64,000 nucleotides of DNA from Pusillimonas sp. DMV24BSW_D. GTDB lineage: Bacteria; Pseudomonadota; Gammaproteobacteria; Burkholderiales; Burkholderiaceae_B. The stretch's first letter is position 1. Every line of letters begins with the position of its first letter. The notes under the pieces were generated by a model. The model did no database searches and was not told the DNA's origin. It was given only the letters and a program-made list of their open reading frames with translations. Positions 57,206-64,000 of this stretch are shown piece after piece. Where the stretch lies: the NCBI RefSeq assembly GCF_011388195.1, contig NZ_CP049990.1, positions 2,108,001-2,172,000 of the forward strand, in the 5' to 3' direction. Both the position numbers and the translations under genes were made by a program.

Positions 57206-58201
57206 CTAGTCAAATTTCTCGCGGATCTCGGACTCTAGTCGTCGGTACTCCTTATTGATCAAATCTGACAACACTTCGTTAATCTGGCAGCGATTGTAAC
57301 GCGCCAAAAGAGCCAACCGCTCTTTTACCTTAACGTCAACGTAGCTGTTGATGGCTTTTTTTTCCTTTTGATCTTGACGTCTTTGACGTTCCCGCCATGC
57401 CCTACTCATGTTTTTCAGCAGGAGGGTTTTCTCTGCCTTGTGAGCAGTCCAGTTTCGTAATACACCATATATCGCTAGAAATTTCTCATGATCGTTTATG
57501 GGGTGGAAAGAAAATAGAACGGGGATGCCAGGGCGGAAGTCCGAATTCTCTTTGCGGTGGTAGTCCTCCAAATAATTCCACGCCCATTCGCATTGCTCCC
57601 GTTCTGGTTTATTTAGCCAGTTTAGTGTTTTTACTTCGCTCAGCATGGACACCCAACGATTTTTGATGTTGTCCATGAAGAGCGATTTGCTGTAAGTCGA
57701 ATTCGGTCCAATGATCCAGGTGTCAAAGTACAGCTTGATGCAGGCAAACCGCTCAGCGTGCGAAGACGGCGTTGGGTTAAGACGAAGTTGGTGGTAGAGA
57801 ATCAACTGACGTTGATCGATCCAAGGCTCCTGGGTTTCTTGCCCGAAGAGAAAGTAATTGGCGGTGGTAGATAAATACCCCCAAATTGCCGAGCAGGCGT
57901 CTTGGTTCTCATTTAACCAATCAAACCGTTCATTGGGAATGATATTCCTGTTGCCCTCTGATATAAGCCAGTTTACCGCTCCCCATCTCGATTCGAGGTC
58001 GGGATATGTCGTGACGAGATGGTCAATAAGCGCCGATTTCAGCGTGTTTCTTTCGTTCGCGGCCAAGGCGCTTATGACTGGATGGTTGGCTGCGCTATTG
58101 AGTATATGGGCGAAACATTGGAGCGTGCGGAGATCACTGACTTCACGTATCAGGTCTTCCGGGTTCTTCTGTCGGTGATGAGGATAGATATGAACGGTCA
58201 T
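57206..58201 (-). CDS. Unknown protein with a C-terminal ribbon-helix-helix domain
   Basis: Not recognised as a whole. From the ATG at 58201 it has 331 residues; a GTG at 58240 would add 13. The first 240 residues are helical, rich in tryptophan and asparagine, with repeated W-N/W-L patterns and no known motif. After a basic stretch (RAWRERQRRQDQKEKKA) the last 45 residues look like a ribbon-helix-helix DNA-binding domain: SYVDVKVKERLALLARYNR then INEVLSDLINKEYRRLE. It lies just inside the presumed element end. The direct repeats at 58240-58313 overlap its start region and could be its operator. Confidence 0.55.
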   Translation of the reverse strand: MTVHIYPHHRQKNPEDLIREVSDLRTLQCFAHILNSAANHPVISALAANERNTLKSALIDHLVTTYPDLESRWGAVNWLISEGNRNIIPNERFDWLNENQDACSAIWGYLSTTANYFLFGQETQEPWIDQRQLILYHQLRLNPTPSSHAERFACIKLYFDTWIIGPNSTYSKSLFMDNIKNRWVSMLSEVKTLNWLNKPEREQCEWAWNYLEDYHRKENSDFRPGIPVLFSFHPINDHEKFLAIYGVLRNWTAHKAEKTLLLKNMSRAWRERQRRQDQKEKKAINSYVDVKVKERLALLARYNRCQINEVLSDLINKEYRRLESEIREKFD

Positions 58202-58239
58202 GTCTGAAAGAGCGCCAATGTTTCGCTTCAAGTAAGCCA

Positions 58240-58313
58240 CTACGTGGCCGGATGTGTCTTACATATGTCGATTTGTATCACAATATCACCTTGTTGTGGT
58301 GCGCCTACGTGGC
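58240..58313. repeat. Direct repeat CTACGTGGC, candidate operator
   Basis: CTACGTGGC occurs at 58240-58248 and again at 58305-58313, 65 bases apart (about six helical turns). Each copy is embedded in a partial inverted repeat (GCCACTACGTGGC; CCTACGTGGCTTAT against AAGCCAC). The pair straddles the region just upstream of the ribbon-helix-helix gene and may bind that protein. Confidence 0.45.
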
Positions 58314-58732
58314 TTATGGGTTAGCTATGCGTCCAGTCCACGTCGAGAAACCGTGTGATTTTTTAAGTTTTTGAGGTGTTATGTGAGTGATGCGGGAGTG
58401 TTCGGAGCAGCAGTATCTGGAGGCGGTTGTTAGCTCTGTTCGTAAACATGCCGGGGTAGATGCAGCGCTTACACCAACATGACCGATCGAGTTGGACCAC
58501 TAATCTCGGAGTTGGCGTGACCACCCGGTACCCACTGTTTCCGTCTTTCAATAATGGCCGTCGACCACGTTTCTAGCACTTTTCAAAATTGGTCCTTGTC
58601 GGTTTAGTAATAGAAGAAGAACGAGAAGACATTCTGTAGGATGCAGAGGCAGCAAGCCTCTGTGTGACGATGAGTCAGTAAAAATATATACATCACCTCC
58701 CTCTGTATGAAACCAACCATACGGAGAATGTG
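58314..58732. other. Long non-coding stretch before the YagK/YfjJ-type gene
   Basis: About 420 bases without a convincing gene; short open frames on the minus strand here have no ribosome site and no recognisable product. A small hairpin CAGAGGC-AGCAA-GCCTCTG is at 58644-58662 and an A/T-rich tract is at 58680-58690. It may hold the plus-strand promoter of the following gene or, given the Rep-like product, a replication origin. No iterons were seen. Confidence 0.4.
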
Positions 58733-59320
58733 ATGAACACACCCTTTACATACAACCCCTACTACCAAGCACGGATCGTCGAGACAGTGGACAAGGCGCT
58801 CATACGCCATCCTCGTACGACAGCTATCCGGGTGGACTTGAGAATTCCTAATGCCTACTGGTCTACATTCCCTTCCGCACTAATCACGAGATTTTTCGAG
58901 TCATTAAAAGCGAAGGTGGCAGTTGACCTACGGAAAAAGGAACTTTCATGGCAAAAAAAATTAGCCTGTAAGTTGAGCTATGTATGGGTTCGAGAACTTG
59001 GACCCATTAGCGGGAAGCTGCACTTCCATGTCCTTTTGATGCTGAACAAAGATATTTACCTATCACTTGGCGATTTTCGACAAGTGAGTGGCACGCTTGC
59101 CTCGTTGGTTCAGCAGGCTTGGTGCAGCGCCCTGGGTTTGCCGTACCCCGAGTATCGGCAGCTGGTGCATTTTCCCAGAGGCGGAGTGATGCACATGGAC
59201 AGTAATCATCCCGATTTCACGCAGCAGTGGCAGTTAGTTATGGGAAAGGCTGACTACCTGGCCAAGGAAGCCACCAAGCACTATGGGGATGGTCTGCGAT
59301 CCTTTGGGTGTAGTCGCTGA
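58733..59320 (+). CDS. YagK/YfjJ (inovirus Gp2-like) domain protein with HUH-Rep-like motifs
   Basis: A 195-residue protein from the ATG at 58733 (CGGAGA upstream). It resembles the YagK/YfjJ C-terminal domain family of islands and filamentous phages. Near the middle, SGKLHFHVLLMLN has a His-hydrophobic-His motif, and near the end DYLAKEATKHYGDGLRSFGCSR has a Tyr-x-x-Lys motif followed by FGxSR. These two motifs in this order are what HUH replication initiators use for metal binding and nicking. The family is normally annotated without function; a Rep-type role is inference. alpA follows after a 98-base gap. Confidence 0.65.
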   Translation: MNTPFTYNPYYQARIVETVDKALIRHPRTTAIRVDLRIPNAYWSTFPSALITRFFESLKAKVAVDLRKKELSWQKKLACKLSYVWVRELGPISGKLHFHVLLMLNKDIYLSLGDFRQVSGTLASLVQQAWCSALGLPYPEYRQLVHFPRGGVMHMDSNHPDFTQQWQLVMGKADYLAKEATKHYGDGLRSFGCSR

Positions 59321-59418
59321 GTAGTAGTTTTTTATCGCAACAGGCCATGTTGTGGAAGAGATGTCGGTTGACCTCGATCGACATCGACTTCTGCCTTTTA
59401 CCAAGACAGGAGAGCAAC

Positions 59419-59673
59419 ATGATCAACGCCGTCCCGACAAATGTACGTTCTGCAGTTTGCCCAAATGACGACTCTTTTCCTTTGATGCAGGATCAGTTCG
59501 TGGATATGGCGTTCATGACGGAATACACGGGATTAACCGACAAATGGTTCTACAAGCTGATTCAAGACGGAAAGTTCCCCAAGCCGGTGAAATTCGGGCG
59601 CAGTTCCCGCTGGTTGAAAAGCGAGCTGGAGACCTGGATACAGGAGCGTATCCAGGAATCACGGGCAGCATAA
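59419..59673 (+). CDS. AlpA family DNA-binding regulator
   Basis: An 84-residue protein from the ATG at 59419 (AGGAGA upstream). The AlpA/MerR-like winged helix reads FVDMAFMTEYTGLTDKWFYKL, then FPKPVKFGRSSRWLKSELETWI. AlpA proteins are excisionase-like or transcription regulators carried by P4-type prophages and integrative elements. Same direction as the YagK/YfjJ-type gene. Confidence 0.88.
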   Translation: MINAVPTNVRSAVCPNDDSFPLMQDQFVDMAFMTEYTGLTDKWFYKLIQDGKFPKPVKFGRSSRWLKSELETWIQERIQESRAA

Positions 59674-59711
59674 GCCGACATGGTCGTGTGGAGCCGTACT
59701 TTCCGCTTGCC

Positions 59712-59858
59712 TTAGGAAACGGCCTTATCTACACATTCCTTCCAGCGTTTTCGGAGACATGCGTTTTCCGCCTTGAGCCTTTGATATCGTAGGTAATGCT
59801 GGTAGCTGTAATGCACCACTACGGCGAAGCCCACGGTGGCAAGCAGGTTCTTCATCAT
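59712..59858 (-). CDS. Small membrane protein (48 residues)
   Basis: A short open frame with a good ribosome site: AAAGGA, 7 bases, then ATG-ATG at 59858 and 59855. The product starts MMKNLLATVGFAVVVHYSYQ, a single hydrophobic segment, and continues with a charged coil (YQRLKAENACLRKRWKE) that looks like a leucine-type coiled coil. It lies 52 bases after the metal-binding/RDF-like gene in the same direction and is probably the last gene of that transcript. Function unknown. Confidence 0.6.
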   Translation of the reverse strand: MMKNLLATVGFAVVVHYSYQHYLRYQRLKAENACLRKRWKECVDKAVS

Positions 59859-59910
59859 TGCGATTTTCCTTTATCGTCAGGGCGCTTGAATTGCTGGCGC
59901 TACCGAAACC

Positions 59911-60804
59911 TTAGACTGATGCCACTTCCGCTTCCGCTGCAATCCTTTCCAGCTTCGCGTTCAAAGACGGCGTCTGCACTGGCTTGGCGGTTTCTGCCGG
60001 TCGGTCTGGGTAGAACTCCTCCATCACATCCAATGCTTCGTCAGGATCATCTTCAAACGCGCCATTACCAAAACCGGCTCTGGCCACCGCATCCAGCGCC
60101 TGCTGGTCATAGGCCAATGCCTGGCGCTCCGCATGGGTCTGGCGAGCCTGCAACAAGGCCTGTTCAATCGTCATGCCTTCGCGCAGGGTGATATCGGCGT
60201 AGTAAATCGGGGTGCCACGCGATTGAGTGGTGCTTTTGCCGCGTAACCGAAGCTCCAGGGGTAGGCAGGCAAGCATGTCCCCTGAAATTGCCTTGAAGTA
60301 TTGCAGCCTGGCCGCCAATGTGCGAATGCTGTTGTATCCGGTCGTGCGAAATACAAAGGTCCCCAGCTCATCATCCTCACCGATCTTGACGTTTAAGCGT
60401 CCGTAGGGCTTGCAAGCGCCGCCTTGTCCCGTCTCGCAGTTGTCGGGCGATGGACAGGGCAGCGCTTGTACGCCACTGCTGGTCACGCGTCGGCAGGTTT
60501 CGCCGTTACCTACGCACATCGGTCGGCCAGTTGTTCTGTCAAACATCGAATATTCGGCCCGAAGGTTCAGGTCAGGGTCGTTAAACAGTAGGGTGATGGG
60601 GATGGAGCGCAACTTGCCGTTTGGGTTGTTCTTGCGCAAGGCCTCATCCAGTGGGTGCGGCAGCCAACCTTCTTTGGTCTGTATTTGGCTGGTGATGGTG
60701 AACTGGTCGTCTTTTTCAGGCAGACGCTTGCCGTTGCGTTCAATGACGCGACCAATTGAAATGCGTCCAAGAACGGGTGGGGTGATTGATAAACCTTTGA
60801 TCAT
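59911..60804 (-). CDS. Mobile-element protein with cysteine cluster (metal-binding or RDF-like)
   Basis: A 297-residue protein from the ATG at 60804 (GGAG 6 bases upstream). It begins MIKGLSITPPVLGRISIGRV. A cysteine group (CVGNGETC, then PCPSPDNCETGQGGAC) in the middle third may bind a metal or form a small knuckle. The C-terminal third is acidic and low in complexity. Similar proteins in integrative elements are annotated as hydrolase/metal-binding protein or as relatives of recombination directionality factors; I cannot decide between them. A terminator-like hairpin lies just before its ribosome site. Confidence 0.6.
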   Translation of the reverse strand: MIKGLSITPPVLGRISIGRVIERNGKRLPEKDDQFTITSQIQTKEGWLPHPLDEALRKNNPNGKLRSIPITLLFNDPDLNLRAEYSMFDRTTGRPMCVGNGETCRRVTSSGVQALPCPSPDNCETGQGGACKPYGRLNVKIGEDDELGTFVFRTTGYNSIRTLAARLQYFKAISGDMLACLPLELRLRGKSTTQSRGTPIYYADITLREGMTIEQALLQARQTHAERQALAYDQQALDAVARAGFGNGAFEDDPDEALDVMEEFYPDRPAETAKPVQTPSLNAKLERIAAEAEVASV

Positions 60805-60821
60805 GATGGACTCCAAAATAG

Positions 60822-60848
60822 AAAAAGCCCGCCGGGTGCGCAGCGGGC
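60822..60848 (-). terminator. Terminator-like hairpin abutting the RBS of the cysteine-cluster gene
   Basis: On the minus strand the stem GCCCGC / GCGGGC (10-base loop) is followed by TTTTT, then after 7 bases by GGAG and the ATG at 60804. It lies between radC and the next gene. Confidence 0.75.
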
Positions 60849-60887
60849 AGGGTGGTGTGGTGACGACGTGCGGTGAAGGTTGTGGCT

Positions 60888-61388
60888 TTACATCAGGCCT
60901 TTTTCAGCCAAGGAGGTACAACCCTGGGCTGCGACTACGATGTGATCCAGAACCCGGATATTGATCAAGGCCAAGGCTTGTTTCAGGTGCTTGGTCAATT
61001 GAATGTCGCTGCTACTTGGGGTTGGATCGCCCGACGGGTGGTTGTGTGCCATGATTAGTGCGGCAGCGTTGTGCTTGAGCGCCAGTTTCACGACTTCGCG
61101 CGGATGAACTGTCGTGGTGTCCAATGTGCCCTGAAACATTTCGTGGACACCGATGCTGCGCAGACGGGAATCGAGAAGGACTACGACAAAAACTTCGTGC
61201 TCGTAGTCTTGCAAAAGTGTCTGCATTTGCGATTGCACAGTGTCAGGATTGGACAGTTCCCGACCTTTGGCCAGACGTTGACGCGCAAATTGGTTGGCCA
61301 TGGTCAAAATGTCCGCTTCGGTGACCTTGGGTGATTGCATGATGTAAACACCAGGTTCGTCGCTGGCTTTAAGCTTGTGATAACGCAT
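60888..61388 (-). CDS. radC: RadC family JAB-domain protein
   Basis: A 166-residue protein with the JAMM metal-protease motif AHNHPSGDPTPSSSD. It begins MRYHKLKASDEPGVYIMQSP, and the RadC core FVVVLLDSRLRSIGVHEMFQG precedes the motif. It is the short form typical of mobile elements, without the N-terminal helix-hairpin-helix of chromosomal RadC. Its role in the element is unknown. The start has AAGGAG at 6 bases. Upstream is a terminator/antiterminator-like leader. Confidence 0.92.
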   Translation of the reverse strand: MRYHKLKASDEPGVYIMQSPKVTEADILTMANQFARQRLAKGRELSNPDTVQSQMQTLLQDYEHEVFVVVLLDSRLRSIGVHEMFQGTLDTTTVHPREVVKLALKHNAAALIMAHNHPSGDPTPSSSDIQLTKHLKQALALINIRVLDHIVVAAQGCTSLAEKGLM

Positions 61389-61394
61389 GTGATG

Positions 61395-61430
61395 CTCCTT
61401 GACGGCAAAAAAGCCGTCGCTATGGACGGC
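61395..61430 (-). promoter_or_regulatory. radC leader with two exclusive hairpins
   Basis: On the minus strand, GCCGTC-CATAGC-GACGGC-TTTTTT is an intrinsic terminator. It is followed at once by a second GCCGTC and then AAGGAG. The middle GACGGC can pair either with the first GCCGTC (terminator) or with the second (loop of six Ts, no terminator). The element ends at the radC ribosome site. Confidence 0.75.
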
Positions 61431-61492
61431 CTGATTTAGTAAGTGGAAATGAAAGGCGGGGAGGGGCTATGTGCTGGCGTAACTTGAGTCGC

Positions 61493-62494
61493 CTAGCCTT
61501 GAACCAGAAACCGACGACTTCCCGGTCGGGGTTGGCTGTACTTGGCAGCCAACTCGGGGTAATCAGCCTGCAGCTTCTTTGAGTCCAGCGTGATGCCGTC
61601 TTTGCTGCGCTTCCAGCTCACGGCCCCCGTTTCGAAGGTGGCGTGGCTGGCTTCGCCCATGGCTTGCTGTATTTGTTGCTTGAACTGTTCTTCCAGCAAG
61701 GTGTATTTTTCGACCTGAAAGCGGGCGTCCTGCAGATCGGTAAAGAGCGCTGACATCTGGCTGTCCTGGCTAAAGTCCAGACGTACCCCATTGTCTCTGG
61801 GGTAAAGGCACTGCAAGGCGGTAGCTGCTGAATCTGAACCATCGACCGGTGGCGGAGTATCGGTCGTGACGTAGTGCCAGAATCGCTCTTGCAGGGTAAT
61901 CAGACGGGCAATGAGCCCATCATCACGTTCAATGCGATAGACCTTCAAGGCTTGACCACACAAAAGCACGGCAACATCAGCGGCTTGTTTGCCCGTAACG
62001 GCCAGTTGATGCTGTACCTGAAGCTGCACGTATTCCGGTACGCCATCGCGCCAGAGCCGTGCGCCGAACTCCCCGGCTGTCTTACATTCCAGAATCTGTA
62101 CATCAGGCGACCCAACGACCTCCCGGTCAATGTTGGCCAACATCCAGGGGATGTTTGGGTGCTGCAGTACGGCGTTGACCTTGCGTACCTTGCGACCGGT
62201 TTGCTTGGTATAGGACGCGGCCACAATCGGTTCTAGCAGGGTTCCCCAGTAAACCGGGGCCGTGGTGTCGTCGGGATCAGGTTTGGGCAGGTCGGCATCC
62301 CGGCCGGTCTTTTCCAGCCAGAGGGTTAATTGGCTCTTATAGGGATTCAGGCCAACGGCAGCAGCGGCGTCGGAGCTACCAATGCCGTGTTTACGTACTT
62401 CTAGCCAATCGTCGCGGGTGATCGTGTTGGTCTTGACCAGGCGAAGGGCGGGGCGAAGCGGTTGAATGTGTTCGTGGTTTAAGGCGATAGCCAT
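61493..62494 (-). CDS. YqaJ viral recombinase family nuclease
   Basis: A 333-residue exonuclease-type protein of the YqaJ/lambda-exonuclease fold. The N-terminal motif DWLEVRKHGIGSSDAAAAVGLNPYKS is diagnostic. The catalytic region has WGTLLEPIV, the aspartate in SPDVQILECKTAG (D-ExK) and YVQLQVQHQLAVTG. It likely resects DNA ends for homologous recombination of the element, usually with a single-strand annealing protein that is not seen here. Ribosome site GGAG two bases after the U-tract of a strong hairpin. Confidence 0.9.
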   Translation of the reverse strand: MAIALNHEHIQPLRPALRLVKTNTITRDDWLEVRKHGIGSSDAAAAVGLNPYKSQLTLWLEKTGRDADLPKPDPDDTTAPVYWGTLLEPIVAASYTKQTGRKVRKVNAVLQHPNIPWMLANIDREVVGSPDVQILECKTAGEFGARLWRDGVPEYVQLQVQHQLAVTGKQAADVAVLLCGQALKVYRIERDDGLIARLITLQERFWHYVTTDTPPPVDGSDSAATALQCLYPRDNGVRLDFSQDSQMSALFTDLQDARFQVEKYTLLEEQFKQQIQQAMGEASHATFETGAVSWKRSKDGITLDSKKLQADYPELAAKYSQPRPGSRRFLVQG

Positions 62495-62507
62495 GATAGT
62501 GCTCCAT

Positions 62508-62552
62508 AAAAAAGCATAAGGCCCGGCGCAGTGAAGTCGCCGGGCCTTATGC
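62508..62552 (-). terminator. Strong intrinsic terminator abutting the RBS of the YqaJ gene
   Basis: A 15-base perfect stem GCATAAGGCCCGGCG / CGCCGGGCCTTATGC with a 9-base loop, followed on the minus strand by TTTTTT, two bases, GGAGC and the YqaJ ATG at 62494. It has the full form of a rho-independent terminator. Confidence 0.88.
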
Positions 62553-62661
62553 CGTGGTGGTAGAGATCAGGTTTTTCGTAAGGGGCTAACAGCAGGCCAT
62601 GGTTTGAGTGGCTTTGTCTTGATGCGTCACATTAATCAAGTTAGTTTGCAGTACATGGTCA

Positions 62662-62681
62662 GATATCACAATTGTGATATC
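62662..62681. promoter_or_regulatory. 20-base perfect palindrome, candidate operator
   Basis: GATATCACAATTGTGATATC is fully symmetrical and ends on the stop codon of the secreted-protein gene. It lies about 110 bases upstream of the YqaJ hairpin. The size and symmetry suit a dimeric repressor site. The 185-base gap to YqaJ also holds TTGAT-N11-ATCAA; no clear promoter was settled. Confidence 0.5.
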
Positions 62682-63342
62682 AGCAGCCAGGAACGCTTAA
62701 CTCATGACCGATCGTGACGGCGGTCACTTGAACGTTCTTGAACGCTTGAGCTGCAACGTCGTCGAAACGTGCTTCACAGTTAAAACGGGTATCCATGACA
62801 TAGTCCTCGCCAGCGGCTTTTGTCATGTGCTCGCCCCAGGCGCTGGCAGCAGCGTAGGCGGCATCCTCAACCAGCACCACTTCCAGCAAGACCTGCATAA
62901 AACCAGCCGCTCGAGGGCCTTCCCAATGCGCGTAAGCCGACGGATCGTAGGCGTTTCCACACATGGTTAAGCAATTGGCCAGGTACCGTAAATCACCGCC
63001 AGACGTCTGTGCAAATGCCCCAAAAGTAAGTTTTGAGGTCGCGGCCGGTGCGTAGTCGCCAATAAAGGATCTAAGGTCGGCGCGGCACGTATCGCTAAGT
63101 GGCATATGCAACGCAGAGACACTGCCGCCTTTGATGGTGGCTGTGATGTCGCACCCCTTGACCCGAAAGGTGTGATTTTCACCAAGAGACTGGCGAGGAA
63201 TGCCAGCAACGGACTCGAAATACCGCTGAGTCGTGCCAAGCATTTCACCGTTGAAAACTTCTTTGACGTCTGCCGCTATTGCTACGCTAGAAAAAACGCC
63301 AGTCAGAAGTGATGTGATGAGGGCGCGGAAAAGATACGACAT
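62680..63342 (-). CDS. Secreted protein of unknown function with six cysteines
   Basis: A 220-residue protein not recognised. It has a typical signal peptide (MSYLFRALITSLLTGVFSSV, cleavage near AIA|AD) and AAGGAA upstream. The mature part carries six cysteines (KGCDI, SDTCRA, ANCLTMCGN, RFNCEA and the last residue PGC), an even number as expected for disulfide bonds in the periplasm. Two halves are separated by HWEGPRAAGFMQ. It lies between the DUF932 and YqaJ genes of the mobile element; periplasmic proteins here may belong to conjugation or entry exclusion, but nothing in the sequence proves it. Confidence 0.6.
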   Translation of the reverse strand: MSYLFRALITSLLTGVFSSVAIAADVKEVFNGEMLGTTQRYFESVAGIPRQSLGENHTFRVKGCDITATIKGGSVSALHMPLSDTCRADLRSFIGDYAPAATSKLTFGAFAQTSGGDLRYLANCLTMCGNAYDPSAYAHWEGPRAAGFMQVLLEVVLVEDAAYAAASAWGEHMTKAAGEDYVMDTRFNCEARFDDVAAQAFKNVQVTAVTIGHELSVPGC

Positions 63343-63477
63343 AAGTGTGTTCCTTGTTTTTAGAGATCAATAAAGTTAAATGTTGATACATTTTGTATTG
63401 TGCCATTGTTGTCGGGCTGAAGTCCGAAGAGGGGCGACCGACATGACCGGCACTATGGGTTGTTGTGACACGCACGC

Positions 63478-64000
63478 TCATGCCAGCATCAGCAAAGTCC
63501 GATCCAGGGCCTTTTGTTTAAGGGCAGCCCCCTGACCGAACCAGGCAGAATCCAATCGGTAATCCGTGTTACGGGCACGACGCTCGTGGTCTACGAATTC
63601 GGTGATGGCATTAAGCAGCCCCAGGGCGGTGCCGCTTGACGTACCCAGTTCAGCCCCGCGGCCTCGCCCGTTGTAAAGCTCCAGAACTTTAGCCATGGCC
63701 GATTCGTTGGGTTGGATGCTTGCGCTTTGGCGTGGCTCGGAAAACAGATGGCGAATGAATGCTTCAGCTTCGACGTGTTTGACCTTGCGCTGGCTTAGGA
63801 CTTTCATGCGGTACATGAACGTATCCCAATTTGAGACAGAAATGCCCAGTTGCCGTTTAACTGCCTGTGCGTCGAAGGCAGTGCTGTGGGGCACCTTGAC
63901 GGCCCCTCTGCTGTCATCAATCGCCACGGCCAGGGTGTTGTTGCACACGACGCGAACGGCTGTGAATTGCGCGGTGGTCGCCAAGGTTCCATCGCAAGCG
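63478..64000 (-). CDS. DUF932 family protein (partial, 5' end outside the window)
   Basis: The frame is open to the window end, so the N-terminus is missing; 173 codons are seen. FTAVRVVCNNTLAVAID and the later AKVLELYNGRGRGAELG then TALGLLNAITEFVDHERRAR are the DUF932 (phage/plasmid-like protein, ArdC-neighbour) pattern. DUF932 proteins are standard in integrative conjugative elements and plasmids; function unknown. The 135-base gap to the next gene has no evident feature. Confidence 0.85.
   Translation of the reverse strand, partial: ACDGTLATTAQFTAVRVVCNNTLAVAIDDSRGAVKVPHSTAFDAQAVKRQLGISVSNWDTFMYRMKVLSQRKVKHVEAEAFIRHLFSEPRQSASIQPNESAMAKVLELYNGRGRGAELGTSSGTALGLLNAITEFVDHERRARNTDYRLDSAWFGQGAALKQKALDRTLLMLA

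Follow-up and report, generated by a model that had tools for sequence, protein, structure and literature searches.

Predicted intrinsic terminators adjoin the Shine-Dalgarno sequences of successive genes in a mobile recombination operon of Pusillimonas and other proteobacteria

Results

The operon and its predicted terminators

We analyzed a 64,000-nucleotide stretch of the genome of Pusillimonas sp. DMV24BSW_D (contig NZ_CP049990.1, positions 2,108,001 to 2,172,000; hereafter the window), which ends within a minus-strand operon of mobile recombination genes where hairpins followed by T-tracts (U-tracts in the RNA) stand directly before the Shine-Dalgarno (SD) sequences of three consecutive genes. 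The operon here consists of gene A, gene B, a DUF932 gene, an open reading frame (ORF) of 220 amino acids (aa), YqaJ, RadC and a Gp3-like gene, and it sits in an island of approximately 50 kb that has a P4-type integrase at its opposite end. Its features are given below in the direction of transcription, in window coordinates or, where so marked, in those of locus L003.

L003:1909-1884, minus strand: fourth predicted terminator, upstream of gene B and slightly beyond the window; 31 bases from its last T to the ATG
63478..64000, minus strand: DUF932 / TIGR03299 gene, C-terminal part in the window (whole gene L003:478-1437)
62680..63342, minus strand: 220-aa ORF between DUF932 and YqaJ, without a terminator upstream
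62514..62552, minus strand: hairpin of the predicted YqaJ terminator, 15-bp perfect stem, -32.0 kcal/mol
62508..62513, minus strand: T6 tract of the YqaJ terminator, 2 bases to the SD
62502..62505, minus strand: YqaJ SD, GGAG; ATG at 62494
61493..62494, minus strand: YqaJ / lambda-exonuclease family gene, 333 aa (PF09588, E 6.7e-50)
61431..61492, minus strand: leader, YqaJ stop to RadC hairpin
61413..61430, minus strand: hairpin of the predicted RadC terminator, 6-bp stem, -9.4 kcal/mol
61407..61412, minus strand: T6 tract of the RadC terminator, 6 bases to the SD
61395..61400, minus strand: RadC SD, AAGGAG; ATG at 61388
60888..61388, minus strand: RadC JAB-domain gene, 166 aa (PF04002, E 1.2e-44)
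60849..60887, minus strand: C-rich, G-poor leader, RadC stop to third hairpin
60827..60848, minus strand: hairpin of the predicted Gp3-like terminator, 8-bp stem, -14.6 kcal/mol
60822..60826, minus strand: T5 tract of the Gp3-like terminator, 7 bases to the SD
60811..60814, minus strand: Gp3-like SD, GGAG; ATG at 60804
59911..60804, minus strand: Gp3-like gene, resembling a recombination directionality factor (RDF), 297 aa, with a cysteine cluster (PF18897, E 4e-47)

The first-pass annotation had described hairpins with U-tracts that end 2 bases (YqaJ), 6 bases (RadC) and 7 bases (Gp3-like gene) short of the SD, and all three were recovered on the minus strand at those positions, as was the 15-base perfect stem before YqaJ (62552-62514). 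These window sites have the sequence features of intrinsic terminators and are predicted to terminate transcription. Across the operon, such terminators occupy four of the six internal junctions (A to B, 220-aa ORF to YqaJ, YqaJ to RadC, and RadC to Gp3-like), and they are missing between B and DUF932, which are 22 bases apart, and between DUF932 and the 220-aa ORF.

Gene B (128 aa), which by reading is zinc-ribbon-like and glycine-rich, and gene A (86 aa) lie upstream of DUF932 on the same strand. The whole DUF932 gene matched PF06067 (E 1.6e-73) as well as TIGR03299, and YqaJ additionally matched TIGR03033 and phrog_434 (RecE-like exonuclease). The 220-aa ORF had no match in Pfam, PHROG or NCBIfam; its start resembles a signal peptide, and its placement between DUF932 and YqaJ is unique to its own genome among the loci compared. 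For the Gp3-like protein, Foldseek matched the predicted model (mean pLDDT 67.7, moderate) to the phiC31 integrase-RDF fusion chain 9teh_I (E 1.2e-6, probability 1.00, TM 0.45/0.58), the sole match in the Protein Data Bank (PDB) below E 0.001. Judged by this fold the third gene is phiC31-type RDF-like, and RDF function is predicted.

Searches with Rfam families, radC-type leaders included, gave no relevant match in the window or in ten relatives: at gathering score only tRNA was found in either, and the matches at 59,500-64,000 with E <= 10 (two mir-5985 and one Cobalamin) were each under the gathering score.

An element-wide comparison with the chromosome had been proposed in the first-pass annotation as a check on the repeated arrangement. 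With a detector that required a hairpin of -7 kcal/mol or lower and a T-tract whose last T lay at most 25 bases from the start, 16 of 357 chromosomal genes were positive (7 of 127 and 9 of 230), most of them weak and a few equally strong; a single near-start terminator is therefore not rare. Five of 49 island genes were positive, and the two beyond the three described here are poor. The enrichment belongs to one operon, to which the arrangement is confined within the island, and the island overall is only mildly enriched.

Recurrence in relatives

Searches with YqaJ and the Gp3-like protein were positive in 23 of the 268 family genomes (own genome included) and gave 33 loci in the species collection. 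At E <= 1e-30, 18 of 399 genomes from the order and 6 of 369 from the class were positive (own genome included in each). A further 27 loci came from the viral collection and 29 and 38 records from plasmids, of which five stretches were examined, while the phage record collection gave zero Gp3-like matches. The usual cassette order was DUF932, YqaJ and Gp3-like, with RadC, where present, before or after Gp3-like.

After matches covering less than half of the query, duplicate sequences and L085 (the own copy) had been dropped, the survey comprised 186 distinct junctions of adjacent cassette genes, of which 32 were shorter than 50 bases, 114 were 50-135 bases long and 40 were longer; counts on the 114 leave out the 72 with other gap lengths. 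Presence of a hairpin was rejected as evidence by itself, since a hairpin of -8 kcal/mol or better occurs at 33 of 41 control junctions, and only a stem with a T-tract near the start was counted (-8 kcal/mol or lower, stem ending at most 35 bases from the start). Near-start terminators so defined were present at 0 of 32 junctions below 50 bases, at 81 of 114 of intermediate length and at 14 of 40 longer ones, and the 81 compare with a mean of 7.6 in dinucleotide shuffles. A terminator at any position was found in 96 of the 114. When cassette junctions and other junctions from the same loci were judged by a second, common criterion, 75 of 114 of the former were positive vs. 5 of 41 of the latter; four of these five (L121, L122, L126, and L129) involve, by reading, the small gene with which the same operon begins, the terminator lying between the operon-start site described below and that gene. 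Grouping the 114 at 65% identity left 48 groups, with a terminator in 35 and a near-start one in 27; grouped counts were 15 of 16 for DUF932 to YqaJ and 11 of 20 for YqaJ to Gp3-like.

Two cruder counts were also made. A first scan (hairpin of -5 or better within 40 bases), whose YqaJ set held distant proteins from outside the cassette, was positive for YqaJ in 27 of 49, RadC in 10 of 14, Gp3-like in 24 of 42 and DUF932 in 13 of 41 cases. With the naive starts of a generic ORF caller the count was 85 of 235 for cassette genes vs. 36 of 627 for others; the caller had misplaced starts and put some cassette genes among the others. Taken together, the relatives exclude chance as the cause of the near-start terminators, and the layout, as read from these sequences, recurs across many species and is neither a chance nor a local feature.

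In several relatives the hairpin could be followed through changes of gene order. The short stem, T-tract and SD of RadC stand after YqaJ in the window and in L046, L026, L027, and L048 (weaker in L047), a similar RadC hairpin follows Gp3-like in L030, L061, and L072, and one also precedes RadC where RadC comes first, in L073. By reading, 10 of 22 distinct RadC upstreams carry the hairpin, and 8 of the 12 without it are less than 50 bases from the preceding gene or overlap it. The YqaJ hairpin of the window likewise adjoins YqaJ despite the ORF that intervenes after DUF932. These comparisons support the view that the hairpin belongs to the downstream gene, for RadC at least.

Anatomy of the linker

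The linker consists of a C-rich, G-poor leader after the stop codon, followed by the stem, T-rich bases and the SD. Leaders average 32 bases with 38.5% C and 10% G, compared with 24% C and 23% G in the same segment before chromosomal terminators (Mann-Whitney p 2.8e-15, a value that is optimistic since the sequences are related). The stems have a median energy of -20.1 kcal/mol (n = 96), and 95 of the 96 stem sequences are distinct, which bears out the first-pass description of a repeated architecture as opposed to one duplicated repeat. The start codon follows the stem at a nearly constant distance (median 24 bases, quartiles 22 and 26). Among 136 hairpins picked irrespective of T, T frequency after the stem is 0.71-0.73 at +1 to +3 and decays to about 0.2 at +12; the bases beside the SD are also T-rich. 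The terminators are one-directional: there is no A-tract 5' of the stem (mean 2.1 A of 8), and the reverse strand passes in 18 of 96.

The stem is kept despite sequence change. In six close YqaJ stems all 84 cells are paired, and 4 of 14 pairs have changed on both sides, a count matched by 0 of 500 shuffles, with pair types that are unexceptional (38 of 500). All four double changes lie in one sequence, L048, and therefore represent one divergent stem kept intact, not many independent events.

Leader-specific switching, which the first-pass annotation had offered as one explanation, fared poorly in the one form tested, sequestration of the SD by the leader: mean SD pairing was 0.70 vs. 0.72 with shuffled leaders (n = 99), and anti-SD 4-mers were rarer in leaders than in shuffles (23 observed vs. 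39.0 expected, of 100).

Two short sequences were also seen next to hairpins. Upstream of DUF932 in L078, a Rhodanobacter contig, a hairpin is followed by ATGCCGTCTGAA, which we take to be the 12-base DNA uptake sequence of Neisseria, and ATGCCGTC likewise occurs 3' of hairpins in L067, L074, and L075.

A conserved site at the operon start

The first gene is preceded by 38 conserved bases, whose consensus is GATTCnAAAAAATTTCAGnCATATATCACCnnnATGAA. A 28-base matrix trained on the upstream sites was scanned over 2.3 million positions; at 16 bits or more it gave 51 sites, each of them on the operon strand and upstream of the first cassette gene. These sites are in 50 of the 114 sequences examined, many of the others having too little upstream DNA. 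At 12 bits or more there were 56 sites, of which 53 were upstream, 3 elsewhere and none inside the cassette. Given this training, the scores and upstream counts are circular; the absence inside the cassette is not. The window operon has a weaker copy (21.1 bits) that starts 62 bases before gene A. With one site upstream and none inside, the cassette looks like one operon with internal terminators, and from this distribution we infer a single transcription unit. The site fits a loading site for an antitermination factor, but it could be a promoter or operator only.

An exact-pattern search of 399 genomes gave one match, immediately ahead of a B-DUF932 operon; the genome concerned had no YqaJ or Gp3-like match. 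Among viral contigs the exact pattern was found once (L139:5332-5358, in a 218-kb contig), after a long hairpin and ahead of a different reading frame, and the start site may serve other genes too. In L079 (the Pseudomonas plasmid pGRT1) the operon-start site and the DUF932 gene each occur twice, on opposite strands.

Search for an antitermination factor

The first-pass annotation had suggested a search for genes of the NusG/RfaH, Q or N type. The whole genome contains one PF02357 match, nusG, at 727 kb and far from the island, and no match to the phage Q families PF06530 and PF03589 at E <= 0.001, so that the NusG/RfaH- and Q-like parts of this search returned only the nusG gene. Nor did the 30 largest neighbor clusters of 92 loci contain a gene outside the cassette common to most loci. 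Many of these clusters are shadow ORFs of cassette genes; real neighbors recognized by reading included an XRE-like regulator in 22 loci, an AlpA type in 17 and a YagK/YfjJ type in 8, and gene B was found in 46 of the 92 loci. A factor encoded within the cassette or by the host is possible.

Three further candidates or clues were set aside. The island encodes a PF05930 excisionase-type "AlpA", which appears to share only its name with the Pseudomonas aeruginosa antiterminator AlpA; phmmer of this protein against PDB sequences at E <= 10 returned only 8c3t, 1z4h, 8dgl, and 2jxb, and the agreement in name is probably coincidental. In several Pseudomonas-type loci the site starts 51 bases before the first start codon, which would leave little room for a put-like RNA between the two. 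The DUF932 fold gave no clue, its model being poor (mean pLDDT 58.5) and without a PDB match at E <= 0.001.

Discussion

A proposed single start and licensed read-through

If the stems terminate transcription, polymerases need help or luck to pass up to four terminators on the way to the Gp3-like gene. The reading that we prefer, and to which we give about an even chance, is that of a single-start operon in which the terminators block stray polymerases while licensed ones pass them, processive antitermination being the most likely means. The whole mobile recombination operon would be transcribed from one regulated start, which the 38-bp site would mark; polymerases that had not been loaded there would be stopped gene by gene, and those loaded at the start would pass the terminators because a dedicated factor, recruited at or near the site, would license their read-through. 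Processive antitermination of an operon held silent gene by gene had been raised in the first-pass annotation, and such antitermination is a reasonable inference from the repeated architecture and the one-operon look of the cassette; the part of it that found no counterpart is the protein, the genome having neither a NusG paralogue nor a match to the two Q families. More specifically, we suggest, tentatively, a previously undescribed proteobacterial antitermination system in which a factor, perhaps encoded by the cassette, loads at GATTCnAAAAAATTTCAGnCATATATCACCnnnATGAA and carries polymerase through the SD-fused terminators, the modules being silent elsewhere.

Several results weigh against licensed read-through from a single start. 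Near-start terminators are present at only 95 of 186 junctions overall and are few in longer gaps (14 of 40) and lacking in gaps below 50 bases (0 of 32), though gaps of up to 30 bases offer too little sequence for the test. Eighteen of the 114 junctions of intermediate length are without a T-tract terminator, some retaining a good stem minus the U-tract, and terminators are infrequent before gene B (7 of 32, within 60 bases) and DUF932 (13 of 41, within 40 bases). The 38-bp site shows no clear sigma-70 -35/-10 pattern, and the site match in L139 stands without the cassette in the 6.3 kb examined. Finally, the search for an antiterminator yielded a single NusG, nothing from two Q families and no widely common neighbor among the clusters listed.

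This last result is also the first point in favor of the main rival, which we regard as possible if somewhat unlikely, namely that the terminators are leaky and need no antiterminator. Fractional read-through would then produce a falling expression gradient and insulate each gene from stray transcription. RadC is preceded by weak hairpins (-8.5 to -16 kcal/mol in the 7 listed), some U-tracts are poor, and insulation alone could explain terminators that act in one direction. On the other hand, many stems are strong, as the median energy illustrates, and three to four strong sites in series would presumably leave the last gene very little transcription.

We consider it unlikely that the linker is a translation or RNA-stability module, with a stem that protects or marks a cleaved 5' end and a U-rich stretch that aids ribosome (S1) binding. 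The near-fixed distance from stem to start would suit such a module, as would the T-rich bases beside the SD and several junctions with a strong stem and weak U-tract, e.g., L024 (the same junction as in L046) and L061. However, T frequency jumps at the stem base and then decays in a terminator-like manner, and the leader makes the SD no more and no less accessible than shuffled leaders do.

It is very improbable that these are ordinary terminators of the upstream gene, brought close to the next gene by the compactness of the element. The 16 of 357 chromosomal genes with a terminator within 25 bases of their start give this explanation a precedent, whereas a similar hairpin precedes RadC behind different neighbors, the YqaJ hairpin of the window is with YqaJ though an ORF separates that gene from DUF932, and leader composition is unlike that before chromosomal terminators. 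Leader-specific attenuators, each behind its own promoter and switched by a ligand, RNA or ribosome, are the least probable explanation of all: the position suits a 5' leader attenuator, but the conserved upstream site never occurs inside the cassette, the minus strand has no sigma-70-like match at 58,712-64,000 (a low-power scan, with 14 matches in the whole stretch scanned vs. 14.4 by chance), upstream coding ends are not AT-rich, and tRNA alone matched Rfam at gathering score.

Relation to known systems

Licensed read-through of internal terminators has published counterparts. In conAn, found in Gram-positive conjugation operons of the pLS20 family, one main promoter is followed by more than 20 internal intrinsic terminators that are thought to limit stray transcription (PMC8955417). 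One main promoter with internal terminators is what we propose here; conAn differs in that its antiterminator is known (the ConAn1 protein with conAn2 RNA), whereas the present operon is short, has proteobacterial hosts and carries SD-fused terminators, and the main text of that paper does not use the terms Shine-Dalgarno or ribosome binding (PMC8955417). AlpA of the P. aeruginosa alpBCDE operon and the Q-type factors of phages 21, lambda, and 82 load at a promoter site, and, according to the cited passages, the loaded polymerase passes intrinsic terminators, some of which stand immediately before the first gene (PMC7969949, PMC9371919). A terminator in that position is also present in the four loci noted above (L121, L122, L126, and L129), while the published AlpA motif, GGGACGN5GGTA, is unlike the 38-bp site. 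A promoter-loaded factor, GafZ, likewise bypasses a terminator in the Caulobacter gene transfer agent (GTA; a phage-like particle) operon, as we propose here; its terminator is a set of 150-bp repeats that follow the first gene, and the cited passages do not show gene-by-gene SD-fused terminators (PMC11150451). With AlpA, Q and GafZ as published promoter-loaded factors, the single start site of the present operon fits a loading site.

Two other systems resemble the cassette in part. Through antitermination, canT of Tn916 allows one promoter to read an element operon past internal terminators, as would happen here, but it is RNA-based and Gram-positive, and the passages cited describe four predicted terminators that do not stand at each gene start (PMC11658703). 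The extended start-associated sequences (ESAS) of cluster K mycobacteriophages are inverted repeats just upstream of many translation starts and, like the linkers, are conserved gene by gene; they share a consensus within a genome, as described there, whereas here the stems differ and a T-tract follows (PMC3203893).

The first-pass annotation knew of no description of this arrangement for this gene set, and we found none in the open-licence literature, where neither SD-fused gene-by-gene terminators nor a combination of processive antitermination, intrinsic terminators and a genomic island turned up, an absence that is weak evidence; DUF932 and YqaJ are mentioned together in one paper. The parts are thus of known kinds, internal terminators with antitermination having been described from phages, Gram-positive conjugative elements, a GTA and one P. 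aeruginosa pathway; the fusion of a terminator to the SD of each gene, together with a conserved start site, appears to be new. The layout suggests that the whole gene set is read only by specially licensed RNA polymerases. If so, mobile recombination genes that recur on the plasmids and islands of many proteobacteria would be under a new and testable form of control, with the 38-bp site as a handle for finding the missing factor, and genes would move as terminator-SD-ORF modules that are silent wherever they land unless behind the site.

The surrounding island

None of the 27 island proteins scanned with Pfam (DUF932 counted twice) matched relaxase or mating-pair genes. Genes for a SIR2-like protein and a HerA-like helicase, the latter with a weak TrwB-domain match, adjoin the operon start on the opposite strand (L003:2742-5537, plus strand), and together they look like a Sir2-HerA defence pair. 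Two inverted trios of tyrosine recombinases, with the same protein sequences by reading, lie at L003:6694-9892 (minus strand) and L004:9759-12957 (plus strand), and between them are IS66 genes, ResIII, a DNA methylase and genes of aromatic-degradation type (Rieske, LigXa-like, dehydrogenases); the whole looks like a composite element within the island. At the island edge, a 344-aa ORF (window 57206-58240, minus strand) had zero matches in Pfam, PHROG and NCBIfam.

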